Below are positions 32,517 to 42,208 of a DNA stretch of 64,000 bases, in pieces. The DNA is from Kangiella geojedonensis (GTDB lineage: Bacteria > Pseudomonadota > Gammaproteobacteria > Enterobacterales > Kangiellaceae): contig NZ_CP010975.1 of NCBI RefSeq assembly GCF_000981765.1, forward strand, positions 1,612,001 to 1,676,000, given 5' to 3'. Numbering within the stretch: position 1 is the first letter of the stretch; every line of letters begins with the position of its first letter. The notes below the pieces were generated by a model. It was not told the DNA's origin. It saw only the letters and a program-made list of their open reading frames with translations, and searched no databases. The position numbers and the translations under genes were made by a program.

Positions 32517-33584
32517 TTAAGGCGTCTTAGTCTCAACCAGCGAAACAATCTCTCGCAAAAAGCTGGTCGCAAAAGCACCTTTTGGTAAATCAAAAGATAA
32601 GGTTAACTCAGTGTCATTATGCCAGTTTGAAGTGACATTTTGAGGAAAACACAGCAAGGCTCTTCGTTCCTCATTAAACCGCTTATTAGCCAACTTCTCA
32701 ATCAAGACCTGATACTTAGCCAAGCAATCGGACTCAAAGGTTAGCGCTTTATTCATAGGTTGCGGTCTTGAGCCAGCTAAAGGCGCTGTTAGCAAGATGT
32801 CATTGTCCGTATAGCGTGACTGCTCAGCGTCTAAGTCTTCAACCACAAAGCCTTTTTCTGAACCACTAAGCATGACAAAATCACCATCCAATAATGTAGC
32901 AGATAAGCCTTTGCTAATACGCTCTGATACCACATGGTTATATAAGAATGAACGAACTGCCGAGAACAATAAGCCCTGTAAGTTACGGTTTTTCAGCCTT
33001 TTATTCTTCATTAGCAAATCAATACCTCGAGTGAGGTTAGCTCCATCTCTGCCAAATCGTTGTTCACCGAAATAGTTGGGAAAACCCTCTGAAATGACGT
33101 TATCTAATCGCTTTTGAAAACTCTCCTTGTCTGCGTCGAGATCGCGCAGTCTGATATCAAAGTGGTTGAACTTAACAGCACCAATTCGTAGCTTTTTATC
33201 ATGACGCCTAGAGTCTAGAACCGTTACTTCATCATCATTAAACTCGGACCAATTGATTTCTCTCAATAGCGGCAGTTGTACGCTGAACCACTGACGTGCA
33301 ATGGCAAAACGATCTTTTTTGCCGGCATAGCCAATATCCGTCGGTTTCACCTCAGCAAAGCGCATCAGTTTTTGCACCACGATATCGGTATTAATGTTTT
33401 GCTTTTCGATATACAGGAAATGATGAGCACCTTCACCCGAAAGTTCGAAGCGTAAGTGCTCTTCTACCACAAAGTCACTCATCTTAGACTTGAAACGAGC
33501 AGTTGATAATGGTTTTCCGTGTAAGCGGCTCCATTCGTAACACTCAATGGCAGAGATGTCTGTTTCGTTTGTAAGGCTTATCAT
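32517..33584 (-). CDS. truD: tRNA pseudouridine(13) synthase TruD
   Basis: A 355-residue pseudouridine synthase modifying U13 in tRNA-Glu. The catalytic aspartate is in [17 protein letters not shown], and the conserved [12 protein letters not shown] lies further on. I placed the start at the ATG overlapping the ispF stop (ATGA), giving [10 protein letters not shown] start 7 codons upstream is open but would overlap ispF by 25 bases. Order ispF-truD-surE-pcm is conserved in gammaproteobacteria. Confidence 0.94.
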
Positions 33585-34060
33585 GAGGCTTGCTGCAAGA
33601 GGCATACCGCATGAACCGCAATACCTTCCTTCCGACCGACAAAGCCCAGCTTTTCAGTAGTGGTCGCTTTGACATTGACTTGAGAAAAGTCTGCATCACA
33701 CACCGCGCATAAAACACCGCGCATGCCTTCTATCTTGTTCGCCATTTTTGGTCCCTGCGCAACAATAGTGACATCGAGATTGCCCAGCTGATAACCTTGC
33801 TCGACAACCAGTTTCATCACGGACTTAAGAAGCTCTTTACTATCCGCCCCAGCAAATTCGTCACTGGTATCTGGAAAATGATGTCCAATATCACCCTTTG
33901 CAATAGCACCGAGCAACGCATCGCAAACAGCATGAAGGACAACATCGCCATCAGAGTGAGCTAACAAGCCTTGCTCACCCTCAAATAATACACCGCCTAA
34001 GATTAACGGCTTATCACCACCAAACTTATGGACATCGTAACCGTGACCGATTCGAAACAT
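33581..34060 (-). CDS. ispF: 2-C-methyl-D-erythritol 2,4-cyclodiphosphate synthase
   Basis: A 159-residue enzyme of the MEP isoprenoid pathway. Zinc ligands are D8 and H10 in GHGYDVHKF, and the [18 protein letters not shown] segment (35-52) carries the third. IspF is normally directly downstream of ispD; here a 7-kb his operon lies between them. The start is 20 bases after the hisD stop in the same direction, so at least part of its transcription may come from the his operon. Confidence 0.96.
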
Positions 34061-34080
34061 AGTAAAACCCAGTTATTCAA

Positions 34081-35304
34081 TTAACTCGATCTTACCGCCA
34101 TACTCTTCTGATGCCAAACCAATTGCTCCGCTTCAGCAATTTTCTCGCCCATGGCCGATAATTTCTTCCTGCCTTCCTCGTGTACAGCCTGTACCGACTG
34201 AACCTTGAGAAAGCTCAATACGCTCAACCCACTAGAACGATTCGCAGTACCCATGGTTGGCAGTGTGTGATTAGGTCCAGAACAGTAATCACCATAAGCA
34301 ACCGCACTATTCTCACCAACAAATAATGACCCAAAGTTTGACAGTAAATCCTGGTCAACCCGCTGATCGGCTAAGAGTAAGTGTTCAGGGGCATACTGAT
34401 TACTGAAGTCGATTGCTTGCTCAACCGAATCAGCTTCAAGCAATATAATTTGCTTATCGTCGAGGAGTTTAGACAGCTCATCAGTAGCTCTTAATAACTT
34501 TTCCACTCCACTCAATAAATCCAAGCTGTCACTGACCAACAAACTTTGCGCTTGTGGGTCATGCTCCGCTTGAGCTGCCATATCGGCAATGACCCAATCT
34601 TGATTAACACTTTCATCAGCAAGTATAAGGAGTTCGCTAGGACCTGCCGCTGCATCAATCTGTATCTTCTGGTTTAACAACTGCTTAGCAGCGTTAACAT
34701 ACTGATTTCCTGGGCCAACCACCATTTGCACCGGCTCGAGGTCTTGGTAACCATAAGCCAGAGCACCAATTGCTTGTGCGCCACCGAGTTTTAGGAAAGC
34801 CGTCGCGCCAGCCAAGCTAGCCGCGGCTAAAATCGCAGGGTGATCAGAAGGTGAGCAAGCAATACGCTCACGACACCCTGCAAGTTTAGCCGGTATCAGC
34901 GTCATTAAAGCTGTAGAAATAAGTGGGAAGCGCCCCCCTGGAATATAAGCTCCAATACGCTCGATCGCTTGGTAGCGAAAACCAAATTCGCCACAGTCAT
35001 CGACATAGGTGCTATCGACCAATTTATCCCGCTGGAATTGCGCAAAGGTTTCAATGCGACTAGCCGCCGCGACGATTGCTTCCAGCAACTCAGGCTCTAA
35101 CCCATAATTGTCCGGTGATTTCAGTTCAATCCACTCTGGACTAAAGCCATCAAATTGTTGACTAAAAGCCTCAACCGCCGCATCACCTTGTGACTGAATC
35201 TGCTTCAGTAACTCACTGACCTTAGAAGCAGCATCACTGTGGCTGTTACTGCTCTCGCGTTGCCATGATTGGCAGTGCAAAATAGTCGAATTGTTAACCT
35301 GCAT
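34081..35304 (-). CDS. hisD: Histidinol dehydrogenase
   Basis: A 407-residue zinc enzyme that oxidises histidinol to histidine in two NAD-dependent steps. Visible: GAYIPGGRFPLISTALM near 118, VVGPGNQYVNAAKQLL near 195, the GPSELLILAD segment near 220, the AEHDPQAQ zinc region and the GPNHTLPTMGTA segment near 345. It is somewhat shorter than E. coli HisD (434), mainly at the termini. It is the last gene of the his operon, although hisD is second in enteric operons; it overlaps hisA-IE by 11 bases. Confidence 0.95.
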   Translation of the reverse strand: MQVNNSTILHCQSWQRESSNSHSDAASKVSELLKQIQSQGDAAVEAFSQQFDGFSPEWIELKSPDNYGLEPELLEAIVAAASRIETFAQFQRDKLVDSTYVDDCGEFGFRYQAIERIGAYIPGGRFPLISTALMTLIPAKLAGCRERIACSPSDHPAILAAASLAGATAFLKLGGAQAIGALAYGYQDLEPVQMVVGPGNQYVNAAKQLLNQKIQIDAAAGPSELLILADESVNQDWVIADMAAQAEHDPQAQSLLVSDSLDLLSGVEKLLRATDELSKLLDDKQIILLEADSVEQAIDFSNQYAPEHLLLADQRVDQDLLSNFGSLFVGENSAVAYGDYCSGPNHTLPTMGTANRSSGLSVLSFLKVQSVQAVHEEGRKKLSAMGEKIAEAEQLVWHQKSMAVRSS

Positions 35305-36544
35305 TTCGAGCTCCTAACTCACTGATGATTTCTTTGGCTGAAACGCCTTTCGCTTTAGCATTGACTAGCGCAAAGAAAATTAAGTCTGCTGCTTCCCAGC
35401 GAACTTCATCGTTATCTTGCGCCTCTATTAATTCCTGACACTCTTCATTCAGTTTCTCAACTTGCAGTGCTTCACTTGCAAAGAGTTTTTGTGTGAACGA
35501 CTGAACGTTAACACCTTTTGATAAATCTTCTAATCGTTGCTCAAAAACGCGATCTAACGTATCTAGCGTGAACTCACGACTTTGTGTCGCAAAGCAACTG
35601 TAGCGCTCGAAGTGGCAGGCATTTCCCTGCTGTTTCACCTTAAATAATAAAGTATCGCCATCGCAATCATAATCGATGTTGACTAGTTTTTGCGTATTGC
35701 CACTGGTCAAGCCCTTTTGCCACAGCTCTTGACGCGAGCGACTATAATACACACCAGCCTTTTTATTGATGGCTTCTTGCAAAGACTCTTTTGTCGAATA
35801 AGCCAACATTAATACTTGTCCCGTTTCAGCGTCCTGTACGATGGTTGGCATCAATGGCGCTTTTTCGAAATCGACACAGCTCATTAACGCATCATCTAAT
35901 TTTAAGCGTCCGGTATACACAGACATCCCAATTTGGCTATTCGAACCCAGTTTATTGATAAACTGAATATCTTCTAACGTTGTAATGCCACCAGCGACGG
36001 TCACGGGAATTTTAGAGGTTTTAACGACTTCTTTAATTCTTGCTTCGTCAATGCCACCCAACATGCCTTCTTTTTGCACTTGTGTGTACAAGAACTCTGA
36101 ACAATTACCCTGAATCTCTTCAATCAAATCCAATACTTTTAAGGTATCGGTTGACTGCCAGCCGTGTGTAACCCAATCATCGCCTTTGGCATCAATCGCA
36201 AAAATCAGCTGCGAACTCGGTAGTTTTTTCACAAAATCCGAACGACACGAGGTTCCTAGAATGACTTTCTTTGCACCCGCTGACAAATACTCTCGTGCTG
36301 TATCATAGTCACGAATACCACCACCTACACGACATGGGTACTTTTTGATTAATTGCTTAATTAGCTCTTTATTGCTTCCACGCCCAAGCGCTGCGTCTAA
36401 GTCAATAATCGCCACTTCACCATAAAGACTGAAGCGCTCTAATAAGCCAAAGACATCTTCGTCTTCAACAATCTTTCTGTCAGGATTACCCTGCTCTAAC
36501 TGAACTGCTTTACCGTCTAATAAATCAATACTGGGAATTAACAT
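35294..36544 (-). CDS. hisAIE: Trifunctional HisA-HisI-HisE fusion
   Basis: A 416-residue single reading frame joining three histidine enzymes. Residues 1-222 are the HisA barrel (ProFAR isomerase): D7 in IPSIDLLDGKAV, the VGGGIRD phosphate loop (73-79), IFAIDAKGDDW (114-124) and the VAGGITTLEDI loop (183-193). Residues about 232-320 are HisI (PRA-CH, phosphoribosyl-AMP cyclohydrolase): MLAYSTKE, WQKGLTSGN, DYDCDGDTLL and GNACHFERYSCF with the zinc cysteines. Residues about 330-416 are HisE (PRA-PH, phosphoribosyl-ATP pyrophosphatase): KLNEECQELIEA and EAADLIFFALV. HisI-HisE fusions are common. HisA fused in front is unusual, and joins consecutive steps E-I-A in one chain. The linkers are short and the frame is unbroken. 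Confidence 0.93.
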   Translation of the reverse strand: MLIPSIDLLDGKAVQLEQGNPDRKIVEDEDVFGLLERFSLYGEVAIIDLDAALGRGSNKELIKQLIKKYPCRVGGGIRDYDTAREYLSAGAKKVILGTSCRSDFVKKLPSSQLIFAIDAKGDDWVTHGWQSTDTLKVLDLIEEIQGNCSEFLYTQVQKEGMLGGIDEARIKEVVKTSKIPVTVAGGITTLEDIQFINKLGSNSQIGMSVYTGRLKLDDALMSCVDFEKAPLMPTIVQDAETGQVLMLAYSTKESLQEAINKKAGVYYSRSRQELWQKGLTSGNTQKLVNIDYDCDGDTLLFKVKQQGNACHFERYSCFATQSREFTLDTLDRVFEQRLEDLSKGVNVQSFTQKLFASEALQVEKLNEECQELIEAQDNDEVRWEAADLIFFALVNAKAKGVSAKEIISELGARNAG

Positions 36545-36563
36545 TTAAAACTCCTGATCTCGC

Positions 36564-37346
36564 TTAGCGAGTTAAAATTTGTTGTTGCTTAAGGGCTTTC
36601 TTAACGTCTTGCACGCTATACTCACCACGGTGGAACATGCCCGCAGCTAAAGCTGCATCACTGCCTGCTAAAAACGTATCCACAAAGTGTTGTTCGTTAG
36701 ACGCACCGCCTGAAGCAATAACTTGAATATTGCGCTCTTTTGCCACTCGTGACATCAACTCATTATCGAAACCAATTCCCGTGCCATCGCGATGCATAGC
36801 CGTTAATAATATTTCGCCAGCACCACGCTCTTCCACTTCCTTGAACCAACCAAAAGCATCAACCTCTGTTCTGACGTGACCACCACTAACATAGACAGCA
36901 TAGTCATCGGTTTCATCTTTGTTGACGTCGATGGCAACCACCACACACTGCGAGCCAAAACCTTCAGCAATCTGATTAATCAGCTGGGGATTTTTAACCG
37001 CCGCCGAGTTTAGCGCCACCTTATCTGCGCCCGCACTTAAAAACTGCTCAACATCTGCATAGCTGTTTAAGCCACCACCGACCGTAAACGGAATCGATAG
37101 GTTTTGCGCCACTCGCCTTACGGTATCTAAAGCGTTAGCTCTATTTTCCAGGGTCGCCTTAATATCTAGAAAGACAATTTCGTCAGCACCCTGCTCTTGA
37201 TAGCGCAATGCTAACTCAACAGGATCGCCCATATCGGTCAACCCCTTAAAATTAACGCCTTTAACTACTCGTCCATTCGCCACATCAAGACAAACTATGA
37301 CTCGTGGGATTAAGCCATTATTGACACTTTCTAATAGCTCAGACAT
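36564..37346 (-). CDS. hisF: Imidazole glycerol phosphate synthase, cyclase subunit
   Basis: A 260-residue TIM-barrel subunit that uses ammonia from HisH to form imidazole glycerol phosphate and AICAR. The catalytic aspartates lie in VIVCLDVANGRVVKG (near residue 20) and VVVAIDVNKDE, with the phosphate loops VGGGLNS and ASGGASN. An N-terminal lead of about 12 residues precedes the usual start. I kept the ATG at 37346 because GAGGAGG lies 10 bases before it. It overlaps hisH by 16 bases. Confidence 0.95.
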   Translation of the reverse strand: MSELLESVNNGLIPRVIVCLDVANGRVVKGVNFKGLTDMGDPVELALRYQEQGADEIVFLDIKATLENRANALDTVRRVAQNLSIPFTVGGGLNSYADVEQFLSAGADKVALNSAAVKNPQLINQIAEGFGSQCVVVAIDVNKDETDDYAVYVSGGHVRTEVDAFGWFKEVEERGAGEILLTAMHRDGTGIGFDNELMSRVAKERNIQVIASGGASNEQHFVDTFLAGSDAALAAGMFHRGEYSVQDVKKALKQQQILTR

Positions 37347-37945
37347 TGTTTAATGACCTCCTCGCCGACATCGCCCGACTTTTCAGGGTGGAACTGAACT
37401 GCCCAAGCATTACCTTGATTGATCGCAGCGATAAACTGTTCTCCGTAAGTGACTGTAGCGGCTGTTACATCTGACTGCTTCACGCCATAACTATTGACAA
37501 AATAAACAATTTTTTCGTTTAAACCCTCATCGTCAGAACTTAGTTTTGACCACCCCACCATAGGCTGCTTAGGGCTGTTTAAGCGTTCAACCTTACCTTC
37601 AAATATTCCTAATCCCGCTACACCAGGATCCTCTTCAGATTGCTTAAACAAGACTTGCAAACCAACACAAATTCCTAAGAATGGCTTATCCGCCACAATC
37701 CAGTCCTTTATGGTTTCATCTAATCCCGTTGCTACTAACTGCTTCATCACCTGTCCAAATCGGCCTTGTCCTGGAACGACTAAAGCATCAACCGATTGAT
37801 GGTTTATATCGTCAGGTTGATTAACTTGAACCGTTGAAAAACCAATACGTTTTAAGCAGGCATATAAACTAAACAAGTTCCCCGCCTTGGTATTTACAAC
37901 ACCAACCGTCATGGGCGCTGTTACTCGACTTGACGCTGTGTTCAT
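37331..37945 (-). CDS. hisH: Imidazole glycerol phosphate synthase, glutaminase subunit
   Basis: A 204-residue class I glutamine amidotransferase supplying ammonia to HisF. The nucleophile cysteine is in FLGICVGLQVLF, the histidine-glutamate pair is in AVQFHPEKSGD and the oxyanion segment is PGQGRFGQVM. It starts inside the last codons of hisB (4-base overlap) and overlaps hisF. Confidence 0.95.
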   Translation of the reverse strand: MNTASSRVTAPMTVGVVNTKAGNLFSLYACLKRIGFSTVQVNQPDDINHQSVDALVVPGQGRFGQVMKQLVATGLDETIKDWIVADKPFLGICVGLQVLFKQSEEDPGVAGLGIFEGKVERLNSPKQPMVGWSKLSSDDEGLNEKIVYFVNSYGVKQSDVTAATVTYGEQFIAAINQGNAWAVQFHPEKSGDVGEEVIKQCLSY

Positions 37946-38520
37946 AACATTCCCTTGGTGCTGTTATCGCGCTCACTAACCTGCAAGGCTTCACGCAAGG
38001 CGAAAGCTAAACCTTTAAAACTAGCTTCTATCAAGTGGTGATTGTTATCAAAGTATTCGGTCTTGATGTGCAACGTTATAGCGCTATTGATCGCAAAGGT
38101 ATAAAAGAAGTGCTTCCACATCTCAGTACCAATACCGCCTAAACTTTCCCTCGAAAAAGGCAAGTCAGTGATCGAGTAAGCACGCCCACACACATCCACG
38201 GCAACCATTAACAAGCTCGCGTCCATCGGCAGCAAGCGTTGACCATAACGCACAATTTTCCCCTGCTGACGCCACGCCTGGTTAAAGGCCTGACCTAAAC
38301 AGATAGCGACGTCCTCAATCAAGTGGTGATCGTCAACCTCTAAATCACCGGTTGACTTCAGTGTTAAATCCCAACCTGCGTGAGTGGCTAGCTGGTTAAG
38401 CATGTGATCAAAAAATGGTAATCCCGTATCAATCGATACCTGTTGCGACCCGTTAATATTAAGCGCCAGCTCAATAGTCGTCTCTTTCGTTTCACGATTT
38501 AAGGTGATGGTATTACTCAT
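37942..38520 (-). CDS. hisB: Imidazoleglycerol-phosphate dehydratase (monofunctional)
   Basis: A 192-residue dehydratase whose metal-binding histidine clusters are in FFDHMLNQLATHAGW (near 37), DDHHLIEDVAICLGQAF (near 68) and NNHHLIEASFKGLAFALREA (near 162). It lacks the N-terminal HisB phosphatase of enteric bifunctional HisB, so histidinol-phosphate phosphatase must come from elsewhere. The HAD domain fused to the preceding HisC is the obvious candidate. It overlaps hisC by 4 bases. Confidence 0.95.
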   Translation of the reverse strand: MSNTITLNRETKETTIELALNINGSQQVSIDTGLPFFDHMLNQLATHAGWDLTLKSTGDLEVDDHHLIEDVAICLGQAFNQAWRQQGKIVRYGQRLLPMDASLLMVAVDVCGRAYSITDLPFSRESLGGIGTEMWKHFFYTFAINSAITLHIKTEYFDNNHHLIEASFKGLAFALREALQVSERDNSTKGML

Positions 38521-40232
38521 AACAACTCCTCTAATTCATTAACCGACTCAAGCACGAGATCAGCACCAAAGTCATATAAGCTCTCACTACCAATACCGAT
38601 AGCTAGTGCCCTTGCTCCGTTGGCTGCCGCCATATCATCGGGCGTATCGCCCATCATCCAGCAATTTTCTTTACCGAAATAGCGCATTGCTTTTTCAACG
38701 CCCTCAGGGTTTGGTTTCGATTGGTTAACGTCGTCATCACTGATTACTAAGCACCCTTTGGCTCCCACAAGCTCAGCCCCTTCAATGGCTTCGTCTTTTG
38801 GGCGGCCCGTAACAATGGCAGTTTTGCGTGTTTTAGTCCCAGTAACAAACAAGCGTGTAGCAAAATCTCGACTGACAAAAGGCTTTTCTATTGTCTTGAA
38901 ACCTTTCTGCGACGAGTTACCTTGGTAATATCTTTGAAAGACATCAACCACTTTGTCGAAGTCAACGCTTTCAGAAGCGACTAACTGTTCATTGGTTAAA
39001 GCCTCAGCCAATACCCAATCATTGTTATAACCGCCCTGACCACGCAATCGCTCAATATCCTTTTGAGTAATGGCTTTACCACTAAGCTCTTTGACCGTAG
39101 CTTTAATCGCTTCATCATAGCTTTGGCTGGTATCAATAAGAACACCATCCATATCAAAGCACAGTAATTCAGGTTTTAACGCCCAACAGAGGGCATTCAA
39201 TAGAGGTTTCACGAAAAAAGGAATCGTTATGCGAATAGCTTGTATATCGGCACCTTTAACACTTAGTCCGGAAAGCTCTGTTTTAATCAAGATATTCCGC
39301 TTCTGGCAAGCAGCTTTAATCAAACGCAATTTGGCTTCACTTCCTTGTACAAAAACAAAGTTGGCACTGCTATCAACCACATCCAGTCCAGACGAACTTA
39401 ACAATGTAGAGATTTGCTCGCGATTTTGAGCAATGGTTTGCGCATAATTACACACTTCTAAGCGAGCACTTTCACTGAACGCTTTTTTCGCCACTTCAAT
39501 AGTGGGTGTGGGCAGATTGAACGGCATTGCCAATTGCGAAAACTGCGCCACTAACGTCTCCTGCCCCAGTAAATAACCACAGCGTATTCCCGCCAAACCG
39601 AATGCCTTTGATAAGGTACGCAAAATCACTAGGTTGTCAAAGCGCTTAATCAGCTCAAGGGTAACGTCTGTCTTGTTGCAGGCAAACTCGATATAAGCCT
39701 CATCAAGAAATACAGCCGCGCCTTTAGACTTAGCTAATTCACAGGCTTTAACGAGTTCATCATAAGGAATCAACTCACCAGTGGGATTATTAGGGCTGGT
39801 TAAAATTAATATTGATTTGTCGCTTACACAATCGAGCGCTGAAGTTAAATCAATACGCATATCGTCCAAAGGCTCAATTAATTCAATATCGCTTTTCCAA
39901 GTGTCTTTACCAACAAGATACTGGCTAAAAGCCGGCAGTGGCAAAATCAATTTGCGTTGTTGCAAGCAGGCTAACTTAAATAACAACTCAATCGATTCAT
40001 CGCCACCATTAGTCAAGAGTAACTGCTTTTCAGACACACCATAGAATTGACTGGCTTGGGTTTGTAATCCCTGCTTATCAGGGTACTTCCACAAACACTC
40101 TGTAGATAGTGTTTCTTCGCTTAGCCAAAGAGGTCGGCTATCAGAGCGCTCATTAAAGTCTAGTTTCAGTGGATTAGCAGAGCTTCCGCCCGCAGCGTCT
40201 AACTCTAAAGAATTTTGATACAGAGGTTTCAT
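38517..40232 (-). CDS. hisC: HisC-HAD fusion: histidinol-phosphate aminotransferase plus phosphatase
   Basis: A 571-residue two-domain protein. Residues 1 to about 352 are a HisC aminotransferase with SPNNPTG (146-152), DEAYIEF (177-183) and the PLP lysine K209 in TLSKAFGLAG. Residues about 354-571 are a HAD hydrolase: motif I DMDGV with D360 and D362, motif II threonine T475 in IVTGRPKD, K506 in SKPNPEG, and motif IV GDTPDD (528-533). The HAD part is subfamily IA-like, unlike the DDDD-type HisB-N domain. HisC and the phosphatase catalyse consecutive steps (imidazole-acetol phosphate to histidinol phosphate to histidinol), so the fusion very probably supplies the missing phosphatase. That activity is inferred. 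The gene overlaps hisG and hisB by 4 bases each. Confidence 0.92.
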   Translation of the reverse strand: MKPLYQNSLELDAAGGSSANPLKLDFNERSDSRPLWLSEETLSTECLWKYPDKQGLQTQASQFYGVSEKQLLLTNGGDESIELLFKLACLQQRKLILPLPAFSQYLVGKDTWKSDIELIEPLDDMRIDLTSALDCVSDKSILILTSPNNPTGELIPYDELVKACELAKSKGAAVFLDEAYIEFACNKTDVTLELIKRFDNLVILRTLSKAFGLAGIRCGYLLGQETLVAQFSQLAMPFNLPTPTIEVAKKAFSESARLEVCNYAQTIAQNREQISTLLSSSGLDVVDSSANFVFVQGSEAKLRLIKAACQKRNILIKTELSGLSVKGADIQAIRITIPFFVKPLLNALCWALKPELLCFDMDGVLIDTSQSYDEAIKATVKELSGKAITQKDIERLRGQGGYNNDWVLAEALTNEQLVASESVDFDKVVDVFQRYYQGNSSQKGFKTIEKPFVSRDFATRLFVTGTKTRKTAIVTGRPKDEAIEGAELVGAKGCLVISDDDVNQSKPNPEGVEKAMRYFGKENCWMMGDTPDDMAAANGARALAIGIGSESLYDFGADLVLESVNELEELL

Positions 40233-41077
40233 AGTGCTTTCCGAATAGGTGTTTCAAGGATATCGGTTGCGCCAGCGCTGATAAGCTTAGGCAATAAATC
40301 TTTAATAAGCTTACGCTCAATTGCTGCTTTAATCGCGAAGCCATCAGCGTTATACAGTTCACTCACCGTTGGCGCACGCATCGCTGGTAACAAGTTCACC
40401 ACTTGCTCAATCGTATCTTTGCCACAATTCATCTCTAGTAAAACACGCTTACGGCCATTCATCACACCGCGCATTAGCAACAATAAATTATCAATTTGTT
40501 CTTTCTTAGCTGGGTCTTTTAAAATCTCTTTGTTAGCAATAAATTGTGTCGAACTTTCGACCACCGTATCCACAATTTTTAATCGATTAGCTCGAATCGT
40601 GGAGCCTGTGCTGGTGTTATCAATAATCATATCGGCGTCTTCCGGCGGAAAGACTTCTGTCGCACCGTAGGCGCGCAGTAACTTAAAAGGTACTCCAAGC
40701 TTTGTCAGATAATCATTGGCAATCTTTTTATATTCTGATGCAACGATAATCTTTCGTTGCTTAACATCCTCCCAGTCCCACTCTTCTGGAATACAGGACA
40801 CAAGCTTTACAGGGTTAAAACCCAAGTCTTCCAAAACTTCAACATCAGCTTCCTGCTCCATAATCCAGTCCATACCGGCGAAGCCAATGTCGTGTTGACC
40901 TAAAGCCACCATTTCTGGAATGTTTTGACTTTTCAATAGCTTAACCTCTATATCACAGCCATAGAGCTTTGGTCGGTAATTACGACTGTCACCAATAAGG
41001 GTTAATCCTACTTCCGATAACAACTCTGCTACCTTGTCGTAAAGCTTACCTTTTGGAATTACCATTTTTAACGTCAT
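40229..41077 (-). CDS. hisG: ATP phosphoribosyltransferase (long form)
   Basis: First enzyme of histidine synthesis, condensing ATP and PRPP. I placed the start at the ATG giving MTLKMVIPKGKLY, because TAGGAG lies about 8 bases before it; an ATG 7 codons earlier has no ribosome site. The 282 residues include the PRPP loop DNTSTGSTIRANRLK near 167 and a C-terminal regulatory domain (MRAPTVSELYN onward). This is therefore the self-sufficient, histidine-inhibited long form that needs no HisZ. It is first in the operon, behind a leader of nearly 400 bases with two attenuators. Confidence 0.95.
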   Translation of the reverse strand: MTLKMVIPKGKLYDKVAELLSEVGLTLIGDSRNYRPKLYGCDIEVKLLKSQNIPEMVALGQHDIGFAGMDWIMEQEADVEVLEDLGFNPVKLVSCIPEEWDWEDVKQRKIIVASEYKKIANDYLTKLGVPFKLLRAYGATEVFPPEDADMIIDNTSTGSTIRANRLKIVDTVVESSTQFIANKEILKDPAKKEQIDNLLLLMRGVMNGRKRVLLEMNCGKDTIEQVVNLLPAMRAPTVSELYNADGFAIKAAIERKLIKDLLPKLISAGATDILETPIRKAL

Positions 41078-41129
41078 TGTATTTCTCCTAAGTATCAATA
41101 TTTAAAATTTAAAAAGTCTGAAAACGAAA

Positions 41130-41160
41130 AAACCCGCTGTCCTTTCGGAGCAACGGGTTT
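41130..41160 (-). terminator. his attenuator terminator 2
   Basis: On the minus strand AAACCCG and CGGGTTT bracket an inner stem (TTG/CAG with a U-G pair, then TCC/GGA) with a GAAA loop, followed by TTTTTT. It ends 52 bases before the hisG start. The 5' arm CCGTTGCTC (41148-41156) is complementary to GAGCGACGG within leader frame 2 (41206-41214), 9 pairs including one G-U, giving a competing antiterminator. Confidence 0.9.
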
Positions 41161-41178
41161 GGAATTCTTTGCTGAGTT

Positions 41179-41259
41179 TTATTCAATCAAGTACAACTCA
41201 TCCCACCGTCGCTCGCGCAGTGTATGATGGTGATGATGTAGTTGACTGATAATTCTCAT
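41179..41259 (-). CDS. hisL: his leader peptide 2 (five consecutive His)
   Basis: A 26-codon reading frame, starting MRIISQL, then five His codons (CAT CAT CAC CAT CAT, 41224-41238), then TLRERRWDELYLIE and stop. It lies 19 bases before terminator 2. No Shine-Dalgarno is evident upstream (GATACAGAATT before the ATG). Ribosome stalling on the His codons would leave GAGCGACGG (41206-41214) free to pair with the 5' arm of terminator 2. A pairing of the His-codon stretch with GGTGGGATG (41199-41207) would give the alternative structure. This is the standard logic of histidine attenuation. Confidence 0.88.
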   Translation of the reverse strand: MRIISQLHHHHHTLRERRWDELYLIE

Positions 41260-41270
41260 AATTCTGTATC

Positions 41271-41300
41271 TTGATAATGTGTTAAGTAAAATTGTATCAA
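41271..41300 (-). promoter_or_regulatory. Possible second his promoter before leader 2
   Basis: On the minus strand TTGATA (41295-41300) and TATCAA (41271-41276) are spaced by 18 bases, lying after terminator 1 and before leader 2. The -35 is one base off consensus and the -10 is weak. The predicted start would be about 5 bases before the leader 2 ATG. If real, leader 2 has its own promoter; if not, it is reached only by RNA polymerase passing terminator 1. Confidence 0.35.
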
Positions 41301-41315
41301 TAAAACCGTTAATGC

Positions 41316-41347
41316 AAAAAAAAAGCCCCGCTCAATGGCGGGGCTTT
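41316..41347 (-). terminator. his attenuator terminator 1
   Basis: A perfect 10-bp stem (AAAGCCCCGC with GCGGGGCTTT, 6-base loop, 41322-41347) followed on the minus strand by a run of T. It lies 27 bases after the stop of leader 1. Its 5' arm CCGCCA (41336-41341) is exactly complementary to TGGCGG (41392-41397) inside leader 1, forming the antiterminator. Confidence 0.92.
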
Positions 41348-41374
41348 ATGAATTCTTTAATTGAAACTAGATTA

Positions 41375-41449
41375 TTAAAGACAATAGCTCACCGCCAACA
41401 CGTTTGCGTGATGGTGATGATGGTTCGATGTGTTTAATAATGTTTTCAT
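41375..41449 (-). CDS. hisL: his leader peptide 1 (five consecutive His)
   Basis: A 24-codon reading frame: MKTLLNTSN, five His codons (CAT CAT CAC CAT CAC, 41408-41422), then ANVLAVSYCL and stop. Outside the His run the peptide is unlike leader 2. AACAC (41430-41434) can pair with GTGTT (41397-41401), which abuts TGGCGG (41392-41397), the segment that pairs with terminator 1. Stalling at His therefore switches between the two structures. The ATG has no ribosome binding site and lies at about +2 of the predicted transcript, so translation may be leaderless. Confidence 0.9.
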   Translation of the reverse strand: MKTLLNTSNHHHHHANVLAVSYCL

Positions 41450-41456
41450 AAGACGC

Positions 41457-41485
41457 ATTAAAGCTTTATTTGCCCAAACTGTCAA
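41457..41485 (-). promoter_or_regulatory. his operon promoter
   Basis: On the minus strand a perfect TTGACA (41480-41485) and TTTAAT (41457-41462) are separated by exactly 17 bases. The predicted start is about 41450, one base before the ATG of leader 1. The promoter lies between the ispD stop (41507) and leader 1, with no terminator between ispD and the leader, so ispD readthrough would also enter the attenuators. Confidence 0.75.
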
Positions 41486-41506
41486 CCAGACTTTATGACG
41501 TTTTGG

Positions 41507-42208
41507 TTAAATACCGTGATTTAACCAAATCGAAGCTAAGAGTAAATCTTCCGGCTCTGTAATTTTAAGATTCTTTCTTGAGCCAATAACTAGCGCTGGA
41601 TGATACCCCGAAAGTTCCATAGCTGAGGCCTCGTCTGTTACTGTATCGCCCTGCTCTAGAGCTTTTAATATCGAGTGTCGAAGCGCTTGTAACGGAAAAA
41701 ACTGTGGTGTTTGAGCTAACCAAATACTATCCCGATCAATAGTCTTATCAATAGATTGACGAGCGTTAGCAATTTTAACAGTATCGATTGCCCCTATCGC
41801 TAAAATAGCGCCATCTGGTGAAGATTCCTTATTTTTAATCAGGTCATCAATATGGTTAGCGCTAAGACAGGGGCGAGCCGCATCATGAACCATCACCCAG
41901 TCACGGGTTACGTCATTACTGTCGGCAATATTATCGAGACCGGATAGCACTGAGTCGACACGGTTATCACCACCCTGCACAGTAATCACTCTGGGGTTAT
42001 CTTTATAAGGTAAGTCAGCCCAATATTGGTCATTAGGATTAAGCGCCACAACCACCTTATGAATCTGAGAGTGCTCTAAAAAACGGTCTATTGCATACTC
42101 AAGGACCGTTTTATCTTCAATTTTTAGATATTGCTTCGGGATATCCGAATTCATGCGAGAGCCAATCCCAGCAGCTGGAATAACAGCCCAAATACGATCA
42201 GAGCTCAT
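41507..42208 (-). CDS. ispD: 2-C-methyl-D-erythritol 4-phosphate cytidylyltransferase
   Basis: A 233-residue MEP-pathway enzyme. CTP-binding AAGIGSRMNSDIPKQYL at about 12-28, and VHDAARPCL near 105. It follows ftsB by 13 bases, the conserved ftsB-ispD pair. Its usual downstream partner ispF is 7.4 kb away, beyond the his operon. Confidence 0.96.
   Translation of the reverse strand: MSSDRIWAVIPAAGIGSRMNSDIPKQYLKIEDKTVLEYAIDRFLEHSQIHKVVVALNPNDQYWADLPYKDNPRVITVQGGDNRVDSVLSGLDNIADSNDVTRDWVMVHDAARPCLSANHIDDLIKNKESSPDGAILAIGAIDTVKIANARQSIDKTIDRDSIWLAQTPQFFPLQALRHSILKALEQGDTVTDEASAMELSGYHPALVIGSRKNLKITEPEDLLLASIWLNHGI

Follow-up and report, generated by a model that had tools for sequence, protein, structure and literature searches.

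The his operon of Kangiella geojedonensis lies on the minus strand of the window (the whole stretch of 64 kb of DNA that was analysed), flanked by ispD and ispF (33581-42208, minus strand; ispF was named by reading). These two genes are often neighbours in other genomes. The first gene of the operon is hisG, whose Shine-Dalgarno sequence has a predicted anti-SD pairing of -7.3 kcal/mol, and the genes that follow it (34081-40232, minus strand) are presumed to be the rest of the operon. Upstream of hisG we found two successive units, each with a His-run leader ORF, an antiterminator arm and an intrinsic terminator. In the direction of transcription, the features are:

41457-41485, minus strand: predicted promoter P1 (promoter scan), with TTGACA at 41480-41485, a 17-nt spacer and TTTAAT at 41457-41462
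41375-41449, minus strand: unit 1 leader ORF, MKTLLNTSNHHHHHANVLAVSYCL and a stop codon, read from the sequence
41408-41422, minus strand: unit 1 His codons CAT CAT CAC CAT CAC (segment 1)
41392-41397, minus strand: unit 1 antiterminator arm TGGCGG (segment 2), with the His-codon region (1:2) and the terminator 5' arm (2:3) as alternative partners
41322-41347, minus strand: unit 1 intrinsic terminator hairpin (segments 3:4), T-run at 41316-41324
41179-41259, minus strand: unit 2 leader ORF, MRIISQLHHHHHTLRERRWDELYLIE and a stop codon, read from the sequence
41224-41238, minus strand: unit 2 His codons CAT CAT CAC CAT CAT (segment 1)
41206-41214, minus strand: unit 2 antiterminator arm GAGCGACGG (segment 2), with the terminator 5' arm as partner
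41131-41159, minus strand: unit 2 intrinsic terminator hairpin (segments 3:4), T-run at 41127-41132
40229-41077, minus strand: hisG (PF01634, PF08029), Shine-Dalgarno AGGAG at 41085-41089
38517-40232, minus strand: hisC::HAD fusion (Pfam PF00155 and PF00702)
37942-38520, minus strand: hisB (Pfam, dehydratase match only)
37331-37945, minus strand: hisH, named by reading the translation
36564-37346, minus strand: hisF, named by reading the translation
35294-36544, minus strand: hisA::hisIE fusion in one 416-aa frame, suggested by reading the translation
34081-35304, minus strand: hisD, named by reading the translation

The HAD part of the hisC::HAD fusion may be the source of histidinol-phosphate phosphatase, and tblastn matches to this fusion come after hisG in the examined related loci with the same hisG type.

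A first-pass annotation of this DNA had described the two frames with five consecutive His codons each, a terminator hairpin with a T-run after each frame and antiterminator arms that pair with the terminator 5' arms. All of these elements were confirmed in the sequence, the hairpins lying 27 nt (unit 1) and 19 nt (unit 2) past the respective stop codons. Its claim that leader, antiterminator and terminator are complete in both units is supported as well, and we found in addition a strong and long protector hairpin (1:2) in each unit, formed by the His codons with the antiterminator arm. The observation of two his attenuators ahead of hisG is correct. The two leaders hold the only CAYx5 runs on either strand of the 64-kb window; 100 shuffles of the window gave a mean of 0.00 such runs and never two. 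Terminator 2, which has a one-base bulge, was missed by a simple hairpin scan and caught by both the uniform detector described below and folding. The whole-unit folds had z-scores of -6.1 (unit 1) and -5.6 (unit 2), with 0 of 200 shuffles equally stable. In minimum-energy folds that include the full terminator, both window units show protector plus terminator, so that timing must decide the outcome, as in any attenuator.

To survey conservation, we gathered 30 hisG loci in a search of 41 relatives' genomes, 39 of which had a match, and a further 68 in public genome contigs; removal of 18 duplicates left 80 distinct loci. A uniform detector, defined by a His-rich ORF of at most 60 codons with a downstream hairpin and T-run, found two units in 22 of these loci, one unit in 33 and none in 24, the last locus (L095) being without upstream DNA. 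Upstream DNA was short (225-240 nt) in three scanned loci (L065, L082 and L083), and distant lineages such as Bacillota and archaea account for some of the loci without a unit. When the 22 tandem regions were Markov-shuffled to give 880 copies, the same detector reported at least one unit in a single copy and two units in none. Every genome of the genus in which hisG was found, 19 in all, has both units; the twentieth, G002, is 55% complete and gave no match. The first-pass annotation had proposed a search of related genomes for two His-rich frames before hisG and had held that its reading would be refuted if close relatives had lost one of the frames or terminators; we looked for such a loss and saw none within the genus. 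Beyond the genus, the pair occurs in Marinicella marina (L062), in a Lysobacterales MAG (L064) and in a MAG titled Alcanivoracaceae (L098). A further locus counted as single, L065, is probably a fourth non-genus tandem, because its sequence starts inside a terminator-like tail and has a unit-2-like leader.

Among all 22 tandem loci, both units combine a His-rich leader frame upstream of a his gene, an intrinsic terminator between the leader and the first gene, and mutually exclusive protector, antiterminator and terminator pairings, the last being weaker for unit 2; this is the combination expected of ribosome-mediated his attenuators. One record titled Kangiella (L055) has no unit; in the hisG tree it is placed outside the Kangiella clade. 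In this locus and in L058, also on the Aliikangiella side of that tree, a terminator still precedes hisG, and the His residues of a short frame are scattered (HQTHRH) and form no run, perhaps a decaying attenuator.

As outgroup, 148 genomes of the same order were searched with a long-form HisG (putatively 'E. coli-type'), yielding 118 matches; 117 of their upstream regions were scanned, the remaining match was already part of the survey above, and three genomes (G035, G038 and G039) belong to both sets. One unit was detected in 105 of the 117 long-form regions, none in 12 and two in 0, and a second His-rich leader, even without a terminator, was likewise found in 0 of the 117. A search of the class with the window's hisG (E <= 1e-60) retrieved its own genome alone among 369, so an even draw of the class contains this hisG type only rarely. 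In a class-wide HisG family search the best matches were mostly short open frames (short-form HisG by reading); the 30 loci from it (L099-L128) stand outside all counts.

The conserved arms changed in a compensatory manner, with firm support for unit 1 and weaker support for unit 2. In the unit 1 terminator, 99.4% of cells were paired, three pairs had changed on both sides, a number reached by 1 of 500 shuffles, and the score was reached by 0 of 500. For the unit 1 antiterminator, 96.3% were paired, two pairs had changed on both sides (17 of 500), the covariation score was matched by 2 of 500 shuffles and the number of further pair types by 125 of 500. In L062 and L098, position 5 of unit 1 arm 3 carries T for C, and its partners in arms 2 and 4 both carry A for G. 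The unit 2 antiterminator had 89.2% of cells paired versus at most 54.2% when slid, and its covariation in the MAFFT alignment was not above shuffles (both-sided pairs 52 of 500, score 157 of 500). This alignment (A2) has L062, L064 and probably L098 out of register and therefore understates unit 2 in its counts. When species were paired singly, A-T was replaced by T-A in L064, and another position is G-T in most loci, A-T in L013, L014 and L098, and G-C in L021 and L062. Exchanging arms among ten lineages also favoured the native matches of unit 2 over permuted ones (6 of 20,000 as good); the same exchange gave no signal for unit 1 (6768 of 20,000 permutations as good).

The promoter layout bears on whether the two units act in series or in parallel. 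In the window, the -10 element of P1 ends 7 nt before the unit 1 ATG, and a P1-type -10 end 6-8 nt before this ATG was found by scan in 20 of the 22 tandem loci (median score 9.1 versus a shuffle 95th percentile of 7.8), the same layout being visible by eye in the other two (L016 and L018). Given this short distance, the first leader is predicted to be leaderless, and the unit 1 leader mRNA probably is so. Unit 2 has a weak Shine-Dalgarno pairing, with a median of -2.7 kcal/mol and a value of -0.7 in the window. If unit 2 had its own promoter, the two attenuators would serve alternative transcripts instead of acting in series, and a promoter-like site (TTTGCA-16-TACAAT, 41291-41318, 9 of 12 positions) does occur between the units of the window. 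However, the best scores before unit 2 in the 22 loci (median 6.15, maximum 7.4) never rise above the shuffle level (mean 6.69, 95th percentile 7.8), and in the seven loci where only 25-29 nt separate terminator 1 from the second ATG (25-69 nt overall) such a promoter would overlap terminator 1. Scoring the 22 loci ruled out an own promoter as a general feature of unit 2, and we consider parallel transcripts very unlikely. With no unit 2 promoter above shuffle level we infer a single transcript for both units, and this lack together with the 25-29-nt gaps suggests that unit 2 is probably reached only by readthrough of terminator 1.

The neighbourhood of ispD offers another conceivable role for the first unit. 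In the window, where the operon sits between ispD and ispF, 21 nt separate the ispD stop codon from the start of P1, and ispD lies upstream of hisG in 16 of the 19 loci of the genus (at most 500 nt away in nine), so terminator 1 might mainly insulate the his operon from the ispD transcript and leave real control to the second attenuator. Yet the pair is kept with no ispD found just upstream in L005 (1.5 kb), L007 and L021 (3 kb, via L034 and L048), L062, L064 and L098, and with ispD 2262 nt away in L013 (via L038); ispD was found upstream of hisG in none of the seven Marinicellaceae-like loci examined. Moreover, unit 1 retains His codons, an antiterminator and a promoter, all needless for a plain insulator. 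Insulation from eno-ispD readthrough, which the first-pass annotation had put forward as a benefit of the pair, can thus be dismissed as a general explanation, and that terminator 1 is mainly an insulator appears most improbable.

The history of the pair was examined on a hisG tree of 52 rows; leaving aside the long-form and most distant loci leaves 51 of the 80 distinct loci. The 19 Kangiella rows form one clade (96/84), which joins ten Marinicellaceae-like rows (98/89) in a 29-row clade holding all 22 tandem loci and seven single-unit loci. A single clade of the 22 tandem rows was rejected by the data, which rules out one origin of the pair without later change and calls for losses or more than one gain inside the 29-row clade. 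The simplest reading is a single gain followed by losses, but the pair may also have been gained more than once. Recent duplication was ruled out by conservation and by the hisG tree, and the earlier statement that the pair is not a recent local duplication is borne out by its presence in all 19 hisG loci of the genus and in three of the sister clade. Marinicella and Kangiella belong to separate orders (Lysobacterales and Kangiellales, respectively), for which reason the operon and its leader may have moved between them. A leaderless-type promoter (score of at least 8) precedes 10 of the 23 single-unit relatives of this hisG type versus 0 of the 105 long-form leaders, where the scan is insensitive (8 of the 105 have one farther up). 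From this contrast the leaderless layout looks ancestral, and unit 1 looks like the original attenuator of this his-operon type, with unit 2 as an added second stage.

Some loci might instead suggest that one of the units is a decaying relic. Only three His codons remain in the unit 2 copies of L018 and L064, and L060 lacks the unit 2 that is present in its sister L062. These two loci are tree neighbours (100/100) with similar sequence directly past the last terminator, a pattern that would fit loss or gain of one unit between two similar terminators. Nevertheless, both units have His-rich frames, terminators and matching arms in 19 of 19 genus loci, and we regard decay of either unit as extremely improbable.

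We explored switching with an equilibrium model in which the polymerase is placed near the end of the terminator 5' arm and the pairing of this arm with upstream RNA is computed for three states: ribosome absent, ribosome at the first His codon (masked) and ribosome at the stop codon. Over the 22 loci, mean pairing for unit 1 was 0.33 free, 0.99 stalled and 0.37 at the stop codon, and the stalled value exceeded the free one in 21 loci, the exception being L021, which shows no switch (0.95 free, 0.94 stalled). For unit 2 the means were 0.75, 1.00 and 0.73, respectively; the stalled value was higher in all 22 loci, but the free value was already at least 0.94 in 11 of them. In the window, unit 1 behaves as a clean switch (0.01 free, 1.00 stalled, 0.09 at the stop codon), and unit 2 hardly switches in this equilibrium model (0.78, 1.00 and 1.00). 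Switching by unit 2 is, according to these calculations, less certain than switching by unit 1.

This difference in free-state pairing (0.33 versus 0.75 on average) raises the possibility, which we regard as doubtful, that the two stages are not equivalent: unit 1 would be leaderless and terminate by default when untranslated, whereas unit 2, with its weak ribosome-binding site, would antiterminate by default, the pair forming a two-input gate sensitive to tRNA-His charging and ribosome availability. The promoter layout found at unit 1 only, and the leader peptides and arms, which differ between the units and are conserved within each set, are consistent with such a gate. It draws, however, on equilibrium folding of RNA segments; the full-length minimum-energy fold of the window's unit 2 is protector plus terminator and not antiterminator; and both units have His runs and shift in the same direction on stalling.

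We favour two attenuators in series that respond to the same signal. The his operon would be transcribed from one promoter, P1, just upstream of the first leader ORF, and RNA polymerase would pass two ribosome-controlled intrinsic terminators before hisG. When His-tRNA is plentiful, the ribosome would clear the His codons in each unit, the 1:2 and 3:4 hairpins would form and transcription would end; when it is scarce, the ribosome would stall on segment 1, allowing the 2:3 antiterminator to form and the polymerase to continue. Expression would then be proportional to the product of two readthrough probabilities, both falling with the same signal, and such a product would give a lower leak when histidine is supplied and a steeper response. 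The series architecture is well supported by the comparative sequence data, and its multiplied readthrough probabilities and steeper response are plausible; the promoter and leaderless start, termination, the response to tRNA-His charging, multiplication and steepness are inferred. Taken as a whole, two same-signal ribosome-mediated attenuators in series, with lower leak and steeper response, are in our judgement a likely account of this leader.

A more elaborate scenario can be put forward only tentatively. A leaderless, default-off his attenuator would feed by readthrough into a differently biased second one, so that the operon would open only with both active translation and uncharged tRNA-His, and the pair, together with the his operon, may have been transferred as a unit from one bacterial order to another. 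If true, such a two-stage gate would let leader peptides alone exert digital control over an amino-acid operon.

Eight other stretches of the same genome were scanned for tandem attenuators. One (L252) has a single Thr-run leader with a terminator, within 1401 nt, before a thrA-like 843-aa frame with an aspartokinase domain. Another (L248) has a single Ile/Val/Leu-rich leader with a terminator upstream of an ilv region, where only ~60 nt upstream of the leader are covered. A third (L249) has one terminator and no obviously enriched leader, and in four more (L246, L247, L250 and L253) the detector reported no terminator. In the remaining stretch (L251:194-324, minus strand; G000:C1 near 1709200), a short Lys-rich frame, MNIQLIVKKHSKKALKKRALFCCG, is followed by a terminator upstream of an 863-aa frame with an aspartokinase domain, a possible lysine leader-peptide attenuator.

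Leader-peptide attenuation is textbook knowledge, usually depicted with a single switch for each operon. A same-signal pair that is conserved provides a natural test of whether serial attenuators multiply, with a gain in steepness and a loss of leak, and of why a lineage keeps two of them. Natural controls with a single unit exist in Aliikangiella, Pleionea and one Marinicella, and the tree neighbours L060 and L062 differ in unit 2.

Both Kangiella units resemble the enteric his attenuator hisL (RF00514), in which a His-run leader peptide, alternative 1:2, 2:3 and 3:4 hairpins and an intrinsic terminator precede hisG (PMC9413887); the difference is that enteric bacteria have one unit and Kangiella two. 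At the gathering cut-off, neither the Rfam His_leader model RF00514 (unit 1 scored 28.4 against 49 bits, unit 2 was unlisted) nor any other Rfam family matched in the window. The accessible portions of PMC9413887, PMC4833913, PMC1262725 and PMC7583486 do not describe a tandem his leader, and no same-signal pair of leader peptides was recognised among titles and abstracts of the searched literature, which takes in few subscription papers. At that level, the first-pass annotation's remark that it knew of no described tandem his attenuator agrees with our search.

Several known leaders share part of this design. Several Gammaproteobacteria have a rimP leader with two terminators in tandem, the additional upstream one accompanied by a potential antiterminator (PMC2965389), but the passages on rimP there mention neither a His-run leader peptide nor an amino-acid signal. 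The leader RNA of Sinorhizobium trpL starts at the ATG and is leaderless (PMC7298713); it is presented as a tryptophan attenuator with a single leader ORF, whereas in Kangiella the predicted leaderless unit would be the first of two stages that sense histidine. T-boxes, too, occur in tandem, and their modes of action are described as unknown (PMC7583486). In attenuation theory, sensitivity is expressed as a logarithmic gain (PMC1183508), and if the two stages are independent their logarithmic gains should add. Tandem riboswitches for the same ligand, which are likewise independent switches in series that each terminate or read through, have a steeper, more 'digital' response curve, described as 'pseudo-cooperative' (PMC9481103). 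There the ligand is sensed by an RNA aptamer, whereas in Kangiella the sensor looks like a translated leader ORF, and the pair would be the ribosome-sensing counterpart of such riboswitches. The nearest known system to the same-signal Kangiella pair is the Salmonella mgtCBR leader, which also has two short leader ORFs in series with an attenuating structure for each. Its two ORFs respond to different signals, ATP and proline, and its stem-loops are distinguished from standard intrinsic terminators (PMC3641672), whereas both Kangiella leaders carry a His run and are followed by standard terminators.
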